NCBI GenBank assembly: GCA_026874595.1
Contig: CM049310.1
Span: 30,939,558-31,003,557, forward strand
Source of the DNA: Sipunculus nudus
Lineage: Eukaryota; Annelida; Sipuncula; Golfingiida; Sipunculidae
Reading direction: 5' to 3'
Length of the DNA: 64,000 bases
In this document: positions 27,205 through 60,531 of the stretch, in pieces
Numbering within the stretch: the stretch's first letter is position 1
Layout of the letters: each line of letters starts with the position of its first letter
Program-made: the position numbers and the translations under genes
The notes under the pieces: model-generated
What the model was told of the DNA's origin: nothing
Databases searched by the model: none
The model's input: the letters and a program-made list of their open reading frames with translations, nothing else

Positions 27205-27292
27205 GAGGATTTGGTAGGGAAAAGCATCTATAACATCATTCATGTTGGGGACCATACACAGTTCTCCACCAGTCTCCGACCTGTATCACTAG
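27205..27292 (+). CDS. NCOA: NCOA exon 3: PAS-A core
   Basis: Residues 63-91 plus one base: EDLVGKSIYNIIHVGDHTQF followed by STSLRPVSL. It corresponds to '[20 protein letters not shown]' in vertebrate p160s. The acceptor is CTGCTTCAG and the donor CTAG|GTAAGA, phase 1. A second copy of the last ~38 exonic nt plus donor lies 79 bp downstream, with an equally good GTAAGA at 27372. The copy carries a CGA to TGA change in the exon frame, so it is decaying or non-coding. A 390-nt purine tract ends about 75 nt before the acceptor. Confidence 0.96.
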
Positions 27293-27400
27293 GTAAGACA
27301 CCAGCACACGTATAAATACACTAAACACATGTATACACAGTTCTCCACAAGTTTCTGACCTGTAGCACTAGGTAAGAAGCCAGCTACCATATATAAATAC
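27255..27400 (+). repeat. Tandem duplication of exon 3 end and donor (period 79)
   Basis: TACACAGTTCTCCACCAGTC at 27255 recurs as TACACAGTTCTCCACAAGTT at 27334. Each leads to CACTAG|GTAAGA (27293 and 27372) and matching intron starts (CCAGC...TATAAATAC). Confidence 0.93.
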
Positions 27401-28419
27401 TCTTAACATACACCTGCAAGTCTGCAAATACAAATTGAAAAGGAAAATGTGTCATATTGTACTTTTATATCCAGGAATGCTTAATAATTTAATAAATCAT
27501 ATTCTCCTCCTGGTAACCCTCCTGGTCAGCTTCTGGCCACAGACCTGTCCACTTAAAGAAGAGGATAAAATTGAGAAATGTGAATATAACATGACCTGCG
27601 GTTGGGTGGGGACTGAAGATGTACTTTTGTGAAGTCTGTCTCTCAACTGCTGCAAGATTTTTACTGCTGGACCAGCACTGCTTTACCCTTAGCACAGAGC
27701 AGTGGCAACATTAAAGGTGGACATCTTAAAAATACCTTTGGGAAAGTGCTACATCAGTAAAACAAACCATACCATCTGTTGTTTTTTACACCAACTGCTG
27801 CTCTAGCCAGCAAGACAGGGCTGAGCAGCACACCAGCACTGATAGCCAGACTGGAGATTGCTGTGTAAGTTTGTATTGATAAGGTACAAGCTGCCATGAC
27901 CCAGGGCGGGCAGGTGGTGACATTTTACATGTATAAGCTTCATTAAGAAGCTCTGAAGGCCTGCCGTAACTGAGATTTGTTGGGAAAGATAAGCAGACTA
28001 GGAATTATAACATGCAGCATTGATCTCTGCTCGGGAGGAAATGCTTCTCTCTCCCCTCTTTTGAATTTAATTTTTTCAGATTCATTAGGTTATATCAGTA
28101 AATATCTTCCTTTAACCTTTTTGTAAATCTGTTTGAACTTTTTTTAGAACCAGAATTTACAATATTTCAACTTCAAGGGTCAAAATGTATTTAATTTGAG
28201 AATATTGTATTTTGTTCAGCCCACACTTAAATGCAGACCAAAAGGTCACCATATGTATATTTTATATTTGTTGTGTTCTATCACGTTTATGTTGTATGCC
28301 ACACACTTGTGCTGAACCTATGAGTAGGATATTTTATTAAGTTTTGATAAGTGATTAAATGAAGAAAGGAGGAAAAACAAAATACAGATTTAAAGTCCTC
28401 AATCTGGTAATCTGATGCG
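27401..28419 (+). other. Intron 3, unique part
   Basis: No supported gene. Short open frames near 27435-27695 on both strands show no domain. Confidence 0.6.
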
Positions 28420-29343
28420 TGAAATCTTAGTAATACAATGTGAGGAATTTTATTGATGTATAGATTTTAAACTTGACTTGTATATGTCCCATTGGAAAAG
28501 CAGGACCTGTATTGATTTATATATAAAAGTGGATGATCAATATCAATTTTGGGATCACAAGGTCAAAGTTCAAGGCCATAGGAGCCATCTGTCAAAAAAT
28601 TTGTTTCTGGATGATAATTCCTGCTTTTATTGATGTAAAGATTTCAAACTTGACTTATATATGTCCCATTGGAAAAGCAAGACCCGAACTGATTTTGGGG
28701 TCATGAGGTCAAAGGTCAAGGTCACAGGACACATCTTTAAAAAGATTTTGGATGTATTTCAGCAAACAATTCATCTCAGATCTTTCATCTTGCACATATA
28801 GTTCACCTGCCAAGAGAGGAAGAACCCTATCAATTTTGAGGTCACAAGGTCAAAGGTGAAGCCATCTGTCCAAAAATTAGCTTCTGGATGATAATTCCTG
28901 CTTTTATTGATGTATAGATTTTAAACTTGACTTGTATATGTCCCATTGGAAAAGCAGGACCTGTATTGATTTATATATAAAAGTGGATGATCAATATCAA
29001 TTTTGGGATCACAAGGTCAAAGTTCAAGGCCATAGGAGCCATCTGTCAAAAAATTTGTTTCTGGATGATAATTCCTGCTTTTATTGATGTATAGATTTCA
29101 AACTTGACTTATATACGTCCCATTGAAAAAGCAAGACCCCAATTGATTTTTGGGTCATGAGTTCAAAGGTCAAGGTCACAGGACCAACATCTTCAAAAAG
29201 ATTGTGGATTGATAGATGGAAGAAACAATAATTGCTTGCCAAGTGTCAGTATATGCTGCTAAAAATGGGGGCCTATTTTTAAAGGGGGGGGGCGTACTAT
29301 GTCTGGGGATACTCTGGCACCTGTGGTGCCAAGAAATATCTAG
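28420..29343 (+). mobile_element. DR1-rich dispersed element (copy of the 42.8-45.1-kb family)
   Basis: Tandem ~180-275-bp units with TGTATATGTCCCATTGGAAA and GGTCATGAGGTCAAAGGTCA (28698-28717). It ends in ACTATGTCTGGGGATACTCT, the hairpin GGCACCTGTGGTGCC and CTAG (29340-29343), the same 3' end as the 42.8-kb element. The 5' hairpin head is missing, so it is 5' truncated. Confidence 0.85.
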
Positions 29344-39625: not shown

Positions 39626-39732
39626 TGGTATTCAGCCCAGTACATACAACTACCCTGACTTTGTTGGCCAGAACATTCAAGAATTTGTCCACATCAATGA
39701 TGTTCAGCTGCTGAGCAAGCACCACCATGAAG
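39626..39732 (+). CDS. NCOA: NCOA exon 7: PAS-B
   Basis: Residues 203-238 plus one base. It encodes GIQPSTYNYPDFVGQ, FVHINDVQLLSKHHHE. The SKHHHE end matches 'YAKRHHHE' of NCOA2. The acceptor is a 14-nt T-rich tract ending CCAG and the donor GAAG|GTAAAT, phase 1. It is shorter than the vertebrate segment around 'WEDLVRRCIQ', which is less conserved. Confidence 0.95.
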
Positions 39733-42754: not shown

Positions 42755-45093
42755 GTATCCCCGGACAAAGTCGGGGGATACTATGTTTTCATACCGGTCC
42801 CGCCGCCGCCGCCGCCACCGCCGCCGCCGCCGCATATAAATCTTGTTGGCGCGATAACCCAAAAAATATTTCACGGAACTTTACCAAACTTGGTATATGT
42901 ATAGATATGGGTAAGAGGACGACGCCTATTTAAAATGAGGTCATGACCTTTACTAGGAGAGTGTTCTTGACCTTGAATAGCTCCAATTTTGGGTAAAATC
43001 GCACTAATTCTTTAATATCTCAAGAAATCTTGCATGGATTGATCCAAAAATCAAGTTGATGGAAGATCATGGATAGTGTTGTCATGTTCCAGAAACTGGT
43101 GGCGCCACCTATTATTCTTTACTTGTTTTCGTGCCGTTTAATACCCCCAAAATTGCCACCTTACAGTACTGTGAGCATTGTAAGTCAAACACTAATGGAC
43201 AGATTTCTTTTATATTGTGCATATACATAGGTATGGGTTATGGGATGATGGTTATTTAAATTGGGGTCATGACCTTTCCTATGTTAGTGGCCTTGACCTT
43301 GAATATTGCCATATATGGTGAAAATCACACTCCTCTTATGATATCTCCAGTGTGGATAGCCATATAGATTTCAAACATGACTTATGTATGGCCCACCACT
43401 AAAGTAAGAACCATATAGGTTCTAGGGTCATGAGGTCAAAGGTCAAGGTCACTGGACTGGCATTTTAAAATATACTGTGGATGCATTTTAAGCCAAACTT
43501 TCATCCCAGGTCTTCCATCTTGAATATTATATATAGCTCACTTGCCAATAGTGGATGATCCATAGAAATTTTGGGGTCACAAGGTCAAAGGTCAAGGGCA
43601 CAGGAGCTATCTGTCCAAATATTAGTTTCTGGATGATAATTCCTTCTTTTATTGATGTATTCATTTCAAACTTGACTTGTATTTGACCAATTGGAAAAGC
43701 AAGACCTGAATTGATTTTGGGGTCATGAGGTCAAAGGTCAAGGTCACAGGAAACCTCTTTAAAAAGGTTGTGGATGCAATTTCAGCCAAAAAATTCATCT
43801 GAGATCTTTCATCTTGCACATATAGTTCACCTGCCAAGAGTGGAAGACCCCTATCAATTGTGAGGTCACAAGGTCAAAGGTGAAGGTCACAGGAGCCATC
43901 TGTCCAAAAATTAGTTTCTGGATGATAATTCCTGCTTTTATTGATGTATGGATTTCAAACTTGACTTGTATTTGACCCATTGGAAAAGCAAGACCTGAAT
44001 TGATTTTGGGGTCATGATGTCAAAGGTCAAGGTCACAGGACACATCTTTAAAAAGTTTGTGGATGCAATTTCAGCCAAAAAATTCATCTGAGATCTTTCA
44101 TCTTGCACATACAGTTCACCTGCCAAGAGTGGAAGACCCCTATCAATTTTGAGGTCACAAGGTCAAAGGTGAAGGTCACAGGAGCCATCTGTCCAAAAAT
44201 TAGTTTCTGGATGATAATTCCTGCTTTATTGATGTATGGCTTTCAAACTTAACTTGTATATGTCCCATTGGAAAAGCAAGACCCAAATTGATTTTGGGGT
44301 CATGAGGTCAAAGGTCAAGGTCACAGGACACATCTTTAAAAAGATGTGGATGCATTTTCAGCCAAATATTTCATCTCAGATCTTTCATCTTGCACATATA
44401 GTTCACCTGCCAAGAGAGGAAGAACCCTATCAATTTTGAGGTCACAAGGTCAAAGGTGAAGGTCACAGGAGCCATCTGTCCAAAAATTAGTTTCTGGATG
44501 ATAATTCCTGCTTTTATTGATGTGTGGTTTTCAAACTTGAGTTGTATATGTCCCATTGGAAAAGCAAGACCAAAATTGATTTTGGGGTCATGAGGTCAAA
44601 GGTCAAGGTCACAGGACACATCTTTAAAAAGATGTGGATGCATTTTCAGCCAAACATTTCATCTCAGATCTTTCATCTTGCACATATAGTTCTCCTGCCA
44701 AGAGAGGAAGAACACTATCAATTGTGAGGTCACAAGGTCAAAGGTGAAGGTCACAGGAGCCACCTGTCAAAAAAAATAGTTTCTGGATGATAATTCCTGC
44801 TTTTATTGATGTATAGATTTCAAACTTGACTTGCATATGTCCCATTGGAAAAGCAAGACCCAAAATGATTTTGGGGTCATGAGATCAAAGGTCAAGGTCA
44901 CAGGACACATCTTTAAAACAATCAAGGTCACAGGACCAAAATCTTCAACAAGATTGTGGATTGTTAGATGGAAGAAACAATGAATATGCCAAGTGTCAGT
45001 ATATGCTGCCAAATTGGGGGTTTGTTCTTAAAGGGGGGGGGGCCTACTATGTCTGGGGATACTCTGGCACCTGCGGTGCCAAGAAATGTCTAG
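42755..45093 (+). mobile_element. Hairpin-bounded, DR1-rich element (full length)
   Basis: 5' hairpin GTATCCCCGGACAAAGTCGG GGGATAC, then TATGTTTT and a (CCG)n run (42803-42834). The core is about five ~288-bp tandem units, each with GGTCATGAGGTCAAAGGTCA (43719, 44006, 44296, 44585, 44873). The 3' end is ACTATGTCTGGGGATAC, hairpin GGCACCTGCGGTGCC and CTAG (45090-45093) before TTT. There is no transposase or Rep/helicase, so it is non-autonomous. The CTAG-T end with a subterminal hairpin resembles Helitron/Helentron-type elements. Confidence 0.82.
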
Positions 45094-48081: not shown

Positions 48082-48229
48082 TTTTGAAAAATGGCACCAG
48101 CACCAGTGGAGTATATCGCTTTAAACTGCAGGAAAATCGCTATGTATTTGTTCAGACGAAAAGCAAGCTGTTCAACAACCCCAGCAGCAACAAACCCGAA
48201 TTTATCATGTCCACACATTCCATCATTAG
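48082..48229 (+). CDS. NCOA: NCOA exon 8: PAS-B core, with 5x duplicated donor
   Basis: Residues 239-287 plus two bases: VLKNGTSTSGVYRF, then ENRYVFVQTKSKLF and EFIMSTHSIIR. It matches 'VLRQGLAFSQIYRF...AAQTKSKLI...VISLHMLHR' of NCOA2. The acceptor is TTTTTTTGCAG. The presumed donor is TTAG|GTGAGA at 48230. The exon end and donor lie in a 46-bp unit present five times head-to-tail (48199-48428). The four downstream donors are GTAAGA, closer to consensus than the first. Reading through the first donor meets TGA at once (AGG TGA), so only use of the first gives the full protein. Confidence 0.96.
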
Positions 48230-48428
48230 GTGAGAAGGAAATCCAATTTATCATGTCCACACATTCCATTTTTAGGTAAGAAGGAAATCTGATTTATCAT
48301 GTCCACACATTCCATTTTTAGGTAAGAAGGAAATCTGATTTATCATGTCTACACTTTCCATCATTAGGTAAGAAAGAAATTTAATTTATCATGTCCAGAA
48401 ATTCCATCATCAGGTAAGAAGAAAATCT
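48199..48428 (+). repeat. 46-bp tandem repeat made of exon 8 end, donor and intron start, 5 units
   Basis: Unit AATTTATCATGTCCACACAT TCCATCATTAG|GTGAGAAGG AAATCC; copies start 48199, 48245, 48291, 48337 and 48383. The first copy's left part is coding (EFIMSTHSIIR). Donors are at 48230, 48276, 48322, 48368 and 48414. Confidence 0.97.
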
Positions 48429-48799
48429 CAGTATCCTGTGTAACTTTGGGCAGATCTTTTCTGCACTGTCTAAAATTCACTCTCTATTGATTGACCAGTT
48501 TGATAACTCTCTGAAGTCTGATATGTAATCATAAATGTCTGAAAGTTATGAAGTACTTTCTAAGATTAAGGTTACGATGTCTGACCCATACAAGAAACTT
48601 AAAGTACACCTTTTCCTCTTTGTGACTGGGCCAGGAGATCTCATTTAAGTGAAGTTGGAAATAGTTAAACATTTTTAAGTATGTTGTTTGAAACTTCTTG
48701 CACTGTGGTACATAAATTTATCTAATGGAGGGTAGAAACAGATACAGAGGATCAGAATATGGGCGTATTGTCTTGAAGGAATTTGTGGATTTGTTGCAG

Positions 48800-48883
48800 G
48801 GAATGTGACTCCGACATTGAGCTGAAGGGCTCTGCATCTACTAGCCTGATGAAGTCTATTATTGGTCAAGGTGGAAAACCCAG
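48800..48883 (+). CDS. NCOA: NCOA exon 9: end of PAS-B region
   Basis: Residues 288-315 plus two bases. RECDSDIELKGS, then SLMKSIIGQGGKP. The start fits the HREQ/DREH position that closes PAS-B in vertebrates; the rest is lineage-specific. The acceptor is TTTGTTGCAG and the donor CCCAG|GTGAAT, phase 2. Phases on both sides fit exons 8 and 10. Confidence 0.91.
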
Positions 48884-54585: not shown

Positions 54586-55972
54586 GATCCAAATACTATG
54601 GATGTGGATCAGGTGGACACATCATCAGCGCAAGAAGTAAACCGAATGGGAAGCCATGAAATGGCTCGGGAAATGGTTAACACTAGCATAGCCAACATGC
54701 GGCCAGCAGATAGCGGACTGAGTCGGTTGCTTCAGATTGCCCCAGTGAATGCAATACCTGGTGTTGATAAGGAAAAGCTATTACAGGGGAACAACTTGGA
54801 AAACTTCTTGTCTGACATGTGGGACAAACAGACAGAGGAGAATGAGAGAGGGATTAAACGGAAAGCAGAGGGTCAGGACCCCAGTGTACACAGTACAGAC
54901 GTGTTAGTGGAGAGTAACAATCCCTCAGACCAAGGCCCAAGCCAGATGGCCAAGAAAAATGTTCTGCTGGCAAGATTGCTGTCTAAGACAGCTACAAAAG
55001 AGGCGGTGATAAACACACAGCACACTGTTAACCCATCGTCAACCCCCCAGACTTCACTGCCTAAAAATTTGGCAGATAAAATTATTGATGTATTACCAAC
55101 AAGGCCGCAAGACATTGGTGCAAGTGCTATGGAAACAATTCAGGCTCCCAATGCCTGGGACAATCCCCGCACCGATCCAAATTCACCATTCCCAGGTAAC
55201 ACAAGCAAGGACACTACTGGACTCAATATGGCAGGTAATAACACTGTCCCTGGTTTGCCACGTTCAACCAGTGATACCCCTGGGGCAGGCGGACTAGATG
55301 TCCAGTTACAACAATTGTTGAACCAGCCTATAAACCCGGCAACCCCAAGTCAGGGTGCGAGAAACACACCCCCGACAAGTTTGGGTGGAAATACAAATAA
55401 TGGTGGTTCCAGTGACCCGTTTCTGTCACAGATCTTACAGCAAGCAACTGATCTTCAACAAGACTGTACTAATAATTCAGCCTCACCGCTGAAGTTTGAT
55501 CAGCCAATGACTGATGACAGCAATTTGTTGCAGCAGTTAGAACAGGCGCTGAAGACTTCTAATATATCACTAGCAGAACTGGACAGTTTCTTAGGTATAA
55601 ACAGTGCGGGTAGTCCCCAGTTTAACACGTTAGATATGAATGAACAAATGGCTATAGATGCTATACAGCAACAGTTGATGAGTGTAGAGCCCCAGACACC
55701 GGCCAGTGTAAGCACACCGATGCCAACGTCTGTGGGAACGCCTTCTGTTAGCAGCCCGATGAGCATACCTGCATCACAGGCAGGCAACGGTGCAACATCG
55801 CCATTCCTACAGGCCCAGGCACAGGTTCAGGCACAAGCTCAGAACTCCATGAGTGAGCTGCGACATCAGCTGCAGCAGCAGACTAATTGCTTCAACCAGA
55901 CCAACCTTATTGGCTTTAACCAACAACAGCAGCAACAGCAGCAGCAAGGACCAAGGTTCCAGCAGCCACAAG
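54586..55972 (+). CDS. NCOA: NCOA exon 15: three LXXLL boxes, AD1 (CBP/p300-binding) and poly-Q
   Basis: Residues 842-1303 plus one base (1,387 nt, the largest exon). In order: LSRLL (54718-54732); a basic patch GIKRKAEG, a possible NLS; LARLL (54967-54981); LQQLL (55306-55320); and LLQQLEQALK followed by ISLAELDSFLGI (55525-55599). The last pair closely resembles the vertebrate AD1 helix pair 'ALLEQLVSFL...ELAELDRALGI', which folds with the CBP/p300 NCBD domain. A Ser/Pro/Thr-rich stretch, an AQAQVQAQAQ run and a nine-Gln run (about 55920-55946) follow. The acceptor is TTATGCAG and the donor ACAAG|GTAAGC, phase 1. A 40-bp minisatellite begins almost at the donor. Confidence 0.97.
54718..55599 (+). 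other. LXXLL boxes and AD1 helix inside exon 15
   Basis: Sub-feature of exon 15: LSRLL 54718-54732, LARLL 54967-54981, LQQLL 55306-55320 and the AD1-like helix pair 55525-55599. LXXLL helices dock in the AF-2 groove of liganded nuclear receptors. The AD1 helix pair binds the NCBD of CBP/p300. LQQLL sits in a Gln/Asn/Pro-rich context and may be a chance match. LARLL and LSRLL have hydrophobic -1 or nearby positions, as in real boxes. Confidence 0.75.
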
Positions 55973-56043: not shown

Positions 56044-57540
56044 ATACAGGGATGCCTCAATGACTCTGTAATCCAGATCTGTGGTACAGTGATGCCTCAA
56101 TGACTCTGTAATCCAGATCTGTGGTACAGTGATGCCTTGATGACTCTGTATGTAATCCAGATCTGTGGTATAGCGATGCCTCAATGACTCTGTAATCCAG
56201 ATCTGTGGTACAGTGATGCCTTGATGACTCTGTATGTAATCCTGATCTGTGGTATAGCGATTCCTTGATGACTCTGTAAACCAGATTTGTTGTATAGTGA
56301 TTCCTTGATGACTCTGTAATCCAGATTTGTGGTACAGTGATGCCTTGATGACTCTGTATGTAATCTAGATCTGTGGTATAGCGATTCCTTGATGACTCTG
56401 TAAACCAGATGTGTGGTACAGTCATGAATTCCTTGATGACTCGGTAAACCAGATTTGTAGTACAGTCATGCCTTGATGACTTTGAAATCCAGATTTGTGA
56501 TACAGTCATGCCTTGATAACTGCGTAATCCAGATCTGTGGTACAGTGATGCCTCAACGACTCTGTAACCCAGATCTGTGGTACAGTGATGCCTCAATGAC
56601 TCTGTAATCCAGATCTGTGGTACAGTGATGCCTCAATGACTCTGTAATCCAGATCTGTGGTACAGTGATGCCTTAATGACTCTGTAATCCAGCTCTGTGG
56701 TACAGTGATGCCTTGATGACTCTGTAATCTAGATCTGTGGTACAGTGATGCCTCAATGACTCTGAAATCCAGATCTGTGGTACAGTGATGCCTTGATCAC
56801 TCTGTAATCCAGATCTGTGGTACAGTGATGCCTCAATGACTCTGTAATCCAGCTCTGTGTAATCCAGATCTGTGGTATAGTGATGCCTCAATGACTCTGT
56901 AACCCAGATCTGTGTTACAGTGATGCCTTGATGACTCTTTAATCCAGATCTGTGTACAGTGATGCCTTGATCACTCTGTAATCTAGATCTGTGGTACAGT
57001 GATGCCTCAATGACTCTGTAATCCAGCTCTGTGTAATCCAGATCTGTGGTATAGTGATGCCTCAATGACTCTGTAACCCAGATCTGTGGTACAGTGATGC
57101 TTTGATGACTCTGTAATCCAGATCTGTGGTACAGTGATGCCTTGATGACTCTGTAATCCAGCTCTGTGGTACAGTGATGCCTCAATGACTCTGAAATCCA
57201 GATTTGTGGTACAGTGATGCCTTGATGACTCTGTAATCCAGATCTGTGGTACAGTGATGCCTCAATGACTCTGTAATCCAGCTCTGAGTAATCCAGATCT
57301 GTGGTACAGTGATGCCTCAATGACTCTGTAATCCAGATCTGTGGTACAGTGATGCCTTGATGACTCTGTAATCCAGATCTGTGGTACAGTGATGCCTTGA
57401 TGACTCTGTAATCCAGCTCTGTGGTACAGTGATGCCTCAATGCTCTGTAATCCAGATCTGTGGTACAGTGATGCCTTGATGACTCTGTAATCCAGATCTG
57501 TGGTACAGTGATGCCTTGATGACTCTGTAATCCAGATCTG
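56044..57540. repeat. 40-bp minisatellite filling intron 15, ~37 units
   Basis: Unit TACAGTGATGCCTCAATGAC TCTGTAATCCAGATCTGTGG. Two main variants (CCTCAATGAC / CCTTGATGAC), plus longer AGCTCTGTGTAATCC units at about 56850, 57025 and 57285. It makes up about 87% of the 1,727-nt intron. Minus-strand frames stay open for 179 and 291 codons because the unit lacks minus-strand stops in all three frames. Confidence 0.96.
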
Positions 57541-57699
57541 TTGAACAATTTTATAATGCATGTCTCCTATGTAATCCAATCTGTTTGACATATTTGCTCT
57601 CCCTTTCATAGATTACATTGGCAAAATACGATTGTGCCTCTTGTTAAGTATATTTTATAATTGTAATACTTATTATATATGAATATATTTTTAATGCAG

Positions 57700-60443: not shown

Positions 60444-60531
<88 letters not shown>
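60444..60531. repeat. (TA)~43 microsatellite
   Basis: Uninterrupted AT/TA run of about 88 bp; likely length-polymorphic and prone to cruciform formation. Confidence 0.97.

Follow-up and report, generated by a model that had tools for sequence, protein, structure and literature searches.

The exon that closes the PAS-B domain of what we read as an animal p160 nuclear-receptor-coactivator-like gene in Sipunculus nudus ends within five tandem copies of a 46-bp unit, each copy carrying an exon end, a splice donor and the start of an intron. The reading we favor, at a probability of roughly 0.78, is that a slippage-type minisatellite has grown over the exon border and that the array is tolerated since enough splicing goes through the first donor and mis-spliced products run into a stop codon. 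The array is most likely an ordinary minisatellite, neutral or slightly harmful to its carrier. Positions below refer to the window, that is, the whole stretch of 64,000 bases that was analyzed.

We propose that tandem duplication, by slippage or unequal exchange, multiplied a 46-bp segment that by chance straddled the exon–intron border. The most upstream unit would have retained the real exon end and donor, and the four intronic units would leave with the intron whenever the first donor is joined to 48800. Use of a downstream donor would add 46–184 extra nt starting with a stop codon, and the extended transcripts would become targets of decay or encode a protein that stops at the end of PAS-B. 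The array would persist simply because first-donor splicing stays adequate. Near-equal donors in series are expected to leak to downstream sites, so near-neutrality would have to absorb this leak.

Structure of the 46-bp array

Tandem Repeats Finder (TRF) places the array at 48199–48428, with a period of 46, 5.0 copies, 89% matches and 0% indels; together with a comparison of the units, this bears out the five tandem copies described in an earlier note on this DNA. A direct reading of the units (Table 1) agrees with the anatomy given there as well: all five are arranged head to tail, and each joins 31 nt from the end of the exon, across an AG/GT junction (the slash marks the splice junction), to 15 nt of intron. 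The exon end of unit 1 is AATTTATCATGTCCACACATTCCATCATTAG, its final exon base is 48229, and the intron part begins with GTGAGA in unit 1 and GTAAGA in units 2–5, with every donor where it had been claimed to lie.

Table 1. Coordinates of the tandem units, the adjoining coding exons and the duplicated end of exon E3 (positions in the window).
Feature	Positions	Strand	Description
Unit 1	48199..48244	+	31 nt exon end, presumed functional donor GTGAGA at 48230, 15 nt intron
Unit 2	48245..48290	+	Donor copy GTAAGA at 48276
Unit 3	48291..48336	+	1/46 different from unit 2; donor copy at 48322
Unit 4	48337..48382	+	Donor copy at 48368
Unit 5	48383..48428	+	Donor copy CAG/GTAAGA at 48414; strongest of the five by U1 pairing
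Coding exon E7, closes PAS-B	48082..48229	+	(V)LKNGTSTSGVYRFKLQENRYVFVQTKSKLFNNPSSNKPEFIMSTHSII(R); open-frame joins, PAS match
Next coding exon	48800..48883	+	Acceptor TTTGTTGCAG/GGAATG; open-frame join
E3 copy 1	27254..27322	+	39 nt end of PAS-A exon E3 (27205–27292), donor TAG/GTAAGA, intron
E3 copy 2, intronic	27333..27401	+	79 bp downstream; 81% identical over 69 nt; donor TAG/GTAAGA at 27372

Differences between pairs of units range from 1/46 (units 2 and 3) up to 9/46 (units 4 and 5), with unit 1 differing from the others at 4–7 of 46 positions and units 1, 2, 4 and 5 mutually at 4–9; this graded divergence fits a stepwise expansion. Despite divergence of up to 9/46, the AG/GT core is intact in all five units. 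The 46-mers that flank the array fall outside it on either side, with 33–39 mismatches. Identity at a lag of 46 is 0.89 in the array against a window mean of 0.27, a contrast that leaves chance similarity no option, and only 2 of 2773 sliding segments in the window reach a lag-46 identity of 0.8. On both strands of the window the nearest match to the consensus unit outside the array has 19 mismatches, which leaves the unit without a copy elsewhere in this stretch. There was no sign of a viral origin of the unit, one degenerate 23-mer giving 0 exact matches in a viral contig collection.

The host gene

Nine exons chosen by eye between 19707 and 50002, with the help of known p160 sequences, join into one open frame with 0 stops, against 34 and 36 stops in the other two frames. 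E7 joins in frame with 39626–39732 (HHHE/V) and with the next coding exon (R/ECDSDIEL), and its last residues, EFIMSTHSIIR, form the end of PAS-B. The exon border lies inside the array, with the end of E7 within unit 1 and the frame open across the junction, as read from the sequence alone. E7, which the earlier note calls exon 8, is the seventh exon recognized in the window; the start of the gene did not turn up there, and a few short motifs picked out no N-terminal bHLH exon.

The hand-joined sequence, which contains small join errors, matches the Pfam families PAS_11 (E 1.2e-36) and PAS (E 4e-9). After correction of the E5/E6 join, the best match in the PDB is the PAS-B domain of NCOA1 (E 3.6e-11), with HIF1A close behind (5.4e-11); this ranking is sensitive to the join, the faulty version having placed HIF1A first (6.9e-12) and NCOA1 lower (1.7e-9). 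These matches and the open-frame joins uphold the earlier assignment of the exon to PAS-B. The Nuc_rec_co-act family (PF08815) scores 22.6 bits, below its curated cut-off of 27, and the downstream open reading frames contain the LXXLL motifs LSRLL, LQKLL, LKQLL and LARLL.

Donor strength and read-through

The unit donors rank among the better of the 14 donors located in the gene (two of them uncertain). The earlier suggestion that the extra donors are stronger than the first holds clearly for unit 5, whose U1 duplex energy is −11.0 kcal/mol, but units 2–4 (−9.4) equal unit 1 (−9.5) by this measure and score slightly lower by a donor position weight matrix (PWM; 4.6 against 5.2 bits, in a range of 4.6–6.9 over the units).

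The junction codon is AG/G, and read-through past the first donor yields TGA at 48231–48233, so that HSIIR is followed at once by a stop, just as the earlier note had it. Because the first unit reads into this TGA, the predicted products of all four extra donors spliced to 48800 share the protein end ...HSIIR; of the five donors spliced to the next exon, only the first keeps the frame open. The additional concern that the donors at +46 and +92 break phase is moot, since the stop lies within every extended product and their phase is irrelevant. Nor is there a forced choice, as had been argued, between unusual protection of the first donor and the production of truncated PAS-only isoforms: ordinary exon definition with decay of stop-bearing transcripts would do and, because every unit ends in AG/GT, so would removal of the leftovers in a second step.

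The idea that RNA folding shields the first donor was considered and found no consistent support across folds. The mean unpaired probability of unit 1 was 0.376, against 0.368–0.467 for the copies, in a fold of 48082–48500, and 0.371 against 0.366–0.456 in a fold of 48150–48480, which puts it inside the span of its copies in these two global folds. Two separate short-range calculations made unit 1 the least accessible of the five, whereas a third global fold, of 48082–48800, made it the most open (0.372) and buried unit 5 (0.011); the answer therefore depends on the stretch that is folded.

The repeat-rich background

The window contains 23 minisatellite arrays with a period of at least 10, which cover 9620 bases (15.0%). 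One of them touches an exon border, where random placement predicts 2.83 (probability of at least one, 0.96), in a count over 15 exons and 30 borders from which E12 was left out and in which two exon ends are approximate. A similarity test over 14 donors and 16 acceptors points the same way: near-tandem duplications take in 236 of 1595 background positions, a rate that predicts 4.4 of 30 borders, and 2 of 30 were seen, namely the 46-bp array and a case at exon E3. On these counts, the structure is no more than a repeat-rich region gives by chance. Outside the TRF arrays and exons, near-tandem copies occur at only two places (18 of 1150 points), one of them the copy of the E3 donor; the corresponding probability of at least one hit in 13 donors is 0.19, which leaves room for a mild excess of near-tandem copies at donors.

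Among units 2–5, 1 of 9 donor columns is variable against 10 of 37 other columns (P = 0.42), so the donor is not significantly more conserved than the rest of the unit, and the columns are too few for the intact AG/GT of all five units to tell chance from selection. A general enrichment of AGGT in the minisatellite units of the window was also considered and rejected (AGGT occurs in 8 of 23 arrays, where shuffling gives a mean of 5.3 and a standard deviation of 1.8).

The case at the PAS-A exon E3 (Table 1) was found by comparing 32 exon-border stretches with the window by BLAST, and is absent from the rows of the TRF run. Read-through at E3 reaches a stop before the donor of copy 2. Together the E3 and E7 cases contain 7 of the 8 plus-strand YAGGTRAGA sites of the window, and these two exons are the only ones of 14 that end in TAG. 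Duplication affects 2 of 14 donors and 0 of 16 acceptors, numbers too small for a claim. A special sequence common to the two duplications was discarded as an explanation, the E3/E7 pair ranking only third among 91 donor pairs.

Alternative explanations

A different account, which we regard as unlikely, is that splicing may start at any of the donors and that leftover units would be cut out later, erasing the repeat from the mRNA at any copy number. In the second step the first donor would be joined to the AG of a later unit, restoring the correct junction, and the different splicing orders would converge on one and the same mRNA, which would make the array harmless. The layout is that of a ratchet point, since all five unit junctions are YAG/GT, a 3′-splice-site-like YAG fused to a strong donor, and a splice from donor 1 to any AG of units 2–5 recreates TTAG/GTAAGA. 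By a PWM the unit AGs score 0.4–3.4 bits, within the range of the gene's 16 acceptors (−1.05 to 8.75, with E11 and E12 uncertain); compared with 1133 AGs from four stretches of intron, units 2–4 fall in the top 2.7%, unit 1 in the top 6.1% and unit 5 in the top 12.9%. Each unit AG is preceded, at 22 and 25 nt, by candidate TNAY branch sites, with no intervening AG in units 1–4. The pyrimidine tracts, however, are mediocre, and in unit 5 a further AG stands 15 nt ahead of the last one. A single-unit intron of 46 nt would moreover leave only about 21–24 nt between donor and branch site, a distance that is probably below what splicing requires, so that units could plausibly be removed only two or more at a time.

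The 46 nt between successive YAG/GT sites resemble a short recursive exon. Recursive splicing involves a short exon of about 50 nt preceded by an acceptor–donor pair (PMC8605326), and recursive sites in human transcripts are reported at the distal ends of cassette exons (PMC10156609). The array shares with these ratchet points and exons the fusion of an acceptor-like AG to a donor and the shortness of the segments; it differs from them in its five near-identical serial sites, its mediocre pyrimidine tracts and its short intron of 570 nt (PMC8605326, PMC10156609). In flies, regenerated sites are kept from being spliced again by the exon junction complex, and recursive sites occur preferentially in long introns (PMC8184009), against the 570 nt of the intron that follows E7. 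Were the leftovers nonetheless removed in this way, exon borders ending in YAG would allow minisatellites to grow across them, and the duplication at the PAS-A exon, which ends in TAG, would be in keeping with this.

Less probable still is a regulated switch, in which downstream-donor transcripts would cut output through decay or would yield a PAS-only protein devoid of the receptor-binding and activation regions. The predicted truncated protein ends at residue 128 of a 153-aa query and the alignments to NCOA1 PAS-B structures end at 129–130, which would leave a nearly complete PAS-B fold, and donors 2–5 score among the gene's better donors. The stop, however, is a by-product of any phase-2 AG/GTRA donor, donor-specific conservation is absent among units 2–5 (1/9 against 10/37 variable columns), and the many downstream exons make decay of the extended transcripts likely. 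Finally, an assembly artefact or wrongly expanded repeat is very improbable: tandem arrays are error-prone in assemblies and unit 3, at 1/46 from unit 2, could be a copied error, but substitutions separate the units, and differences at 4–9 of 46 positions show that units 1, 2, 4 and 5 are not.

Relation to known systems

That minisatellite-type repeats alter splicing at exon–intron boundaries is already known from human duplicated genes, in which internal tandem repeats at these boundaries average 30 bp x 4, or 160 bp (Genome Biol 2009, PMC2812944). As in the human case, the minisatellite units considered here lie across an exon–intron border, where in human they are able to change splicing. 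The human repeats vary in number among paralogs and transcripts support the change, while the present case is one gene copy known from its sequence; unlike the human repeats, the repeated element here is a donor with its exon end (PMC2812944).

Tandem duplication is also a route to intron gain. In the RdRp gene of potato, under the Rogers model, the duplicated segment crosses an intron–exon border and the donor derives from a cryptic exonic site (PMC4974935), and two introns gained in fission yeast are made up of 24-nt repeats in tandem, although one of the two is not exactly matched by its EST (PMC3629103). The yeast motif is given as AGGC in the original (PMC3629103) and as AGGT where it is retold (PMC4974935). 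The present array resembles these cases in its tandem copies with splice-site-like sequence, AGGT being found in 5/5 units (PMC4974935, PMC3629103). Unlike AGGT intron gain, the unit here is not wholly exonic (besides 31 nt of exon it takes in 15 nt of an existing intron), and because the duplicated border is the donor end of that intron, a new intron position is not needed and the protein would be unchanged if the first donor is used.

In Cryptococcus CNN00420, repeat expansion adds introns and is attributed to slippage, unequal crossing over or conversion (PMC2395259). There too the repeat units include exon ends, but the unit of about 107 nt contains a whole intron, while the unit here contains only the donor border (PMC2395259). 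Tandem donors and acceptors are themselves the subject of a further study (PMC2423196). Our search of one literature library, judged by the titles and abstracts shown, turned up no paper that describes donor copies arrayed at a single exon end; we do not claim priority.

With five near-identical donors at an even spacing of 46 nt and in nearly identical local exon context, the array is an unusually clean natural counterpart of the classic duplicated-donor experiment, in which junction counts would show how donor choice depends on position as opposed to sequence. Should the leftovers prove to be re-spliced, the array would illustrate a way in which repeats can be allowed to grow at exon borders; should they not, it would simply exemplify a minisatellite that selection has tolerated at such a border.

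Other repeats in the window

Seven perfect copies of AGGTCAAAGGTCA, all on the plus strand, lie at 43433–44605, 7538 and 28706, where shuffling predicts 0.02. We take this sequence, by its consensus, to be a DR1-type nuclear-receptor element. Five of the seven copies lie inside a 289-bp array at 43363–44918; the cluster is curious in a nuclear-receptor coactivator gene but is probably part of a repeat family. At 28448–29184 a 283-nt direct repeat (98% identity, 454 bp apart) is accompanied by five copies of an AGGTCA-bearing 50-nt motif (66–100% identity) that resembles the unit of the 43363–44918 array. A 40/80-bp minisatellite of about 1.5 kb (56045–57541) starts 73 nt past the end of a large exon (54586–55972), and a perfect (AT)43.5 dinucleotide run occupies 60445–60531.
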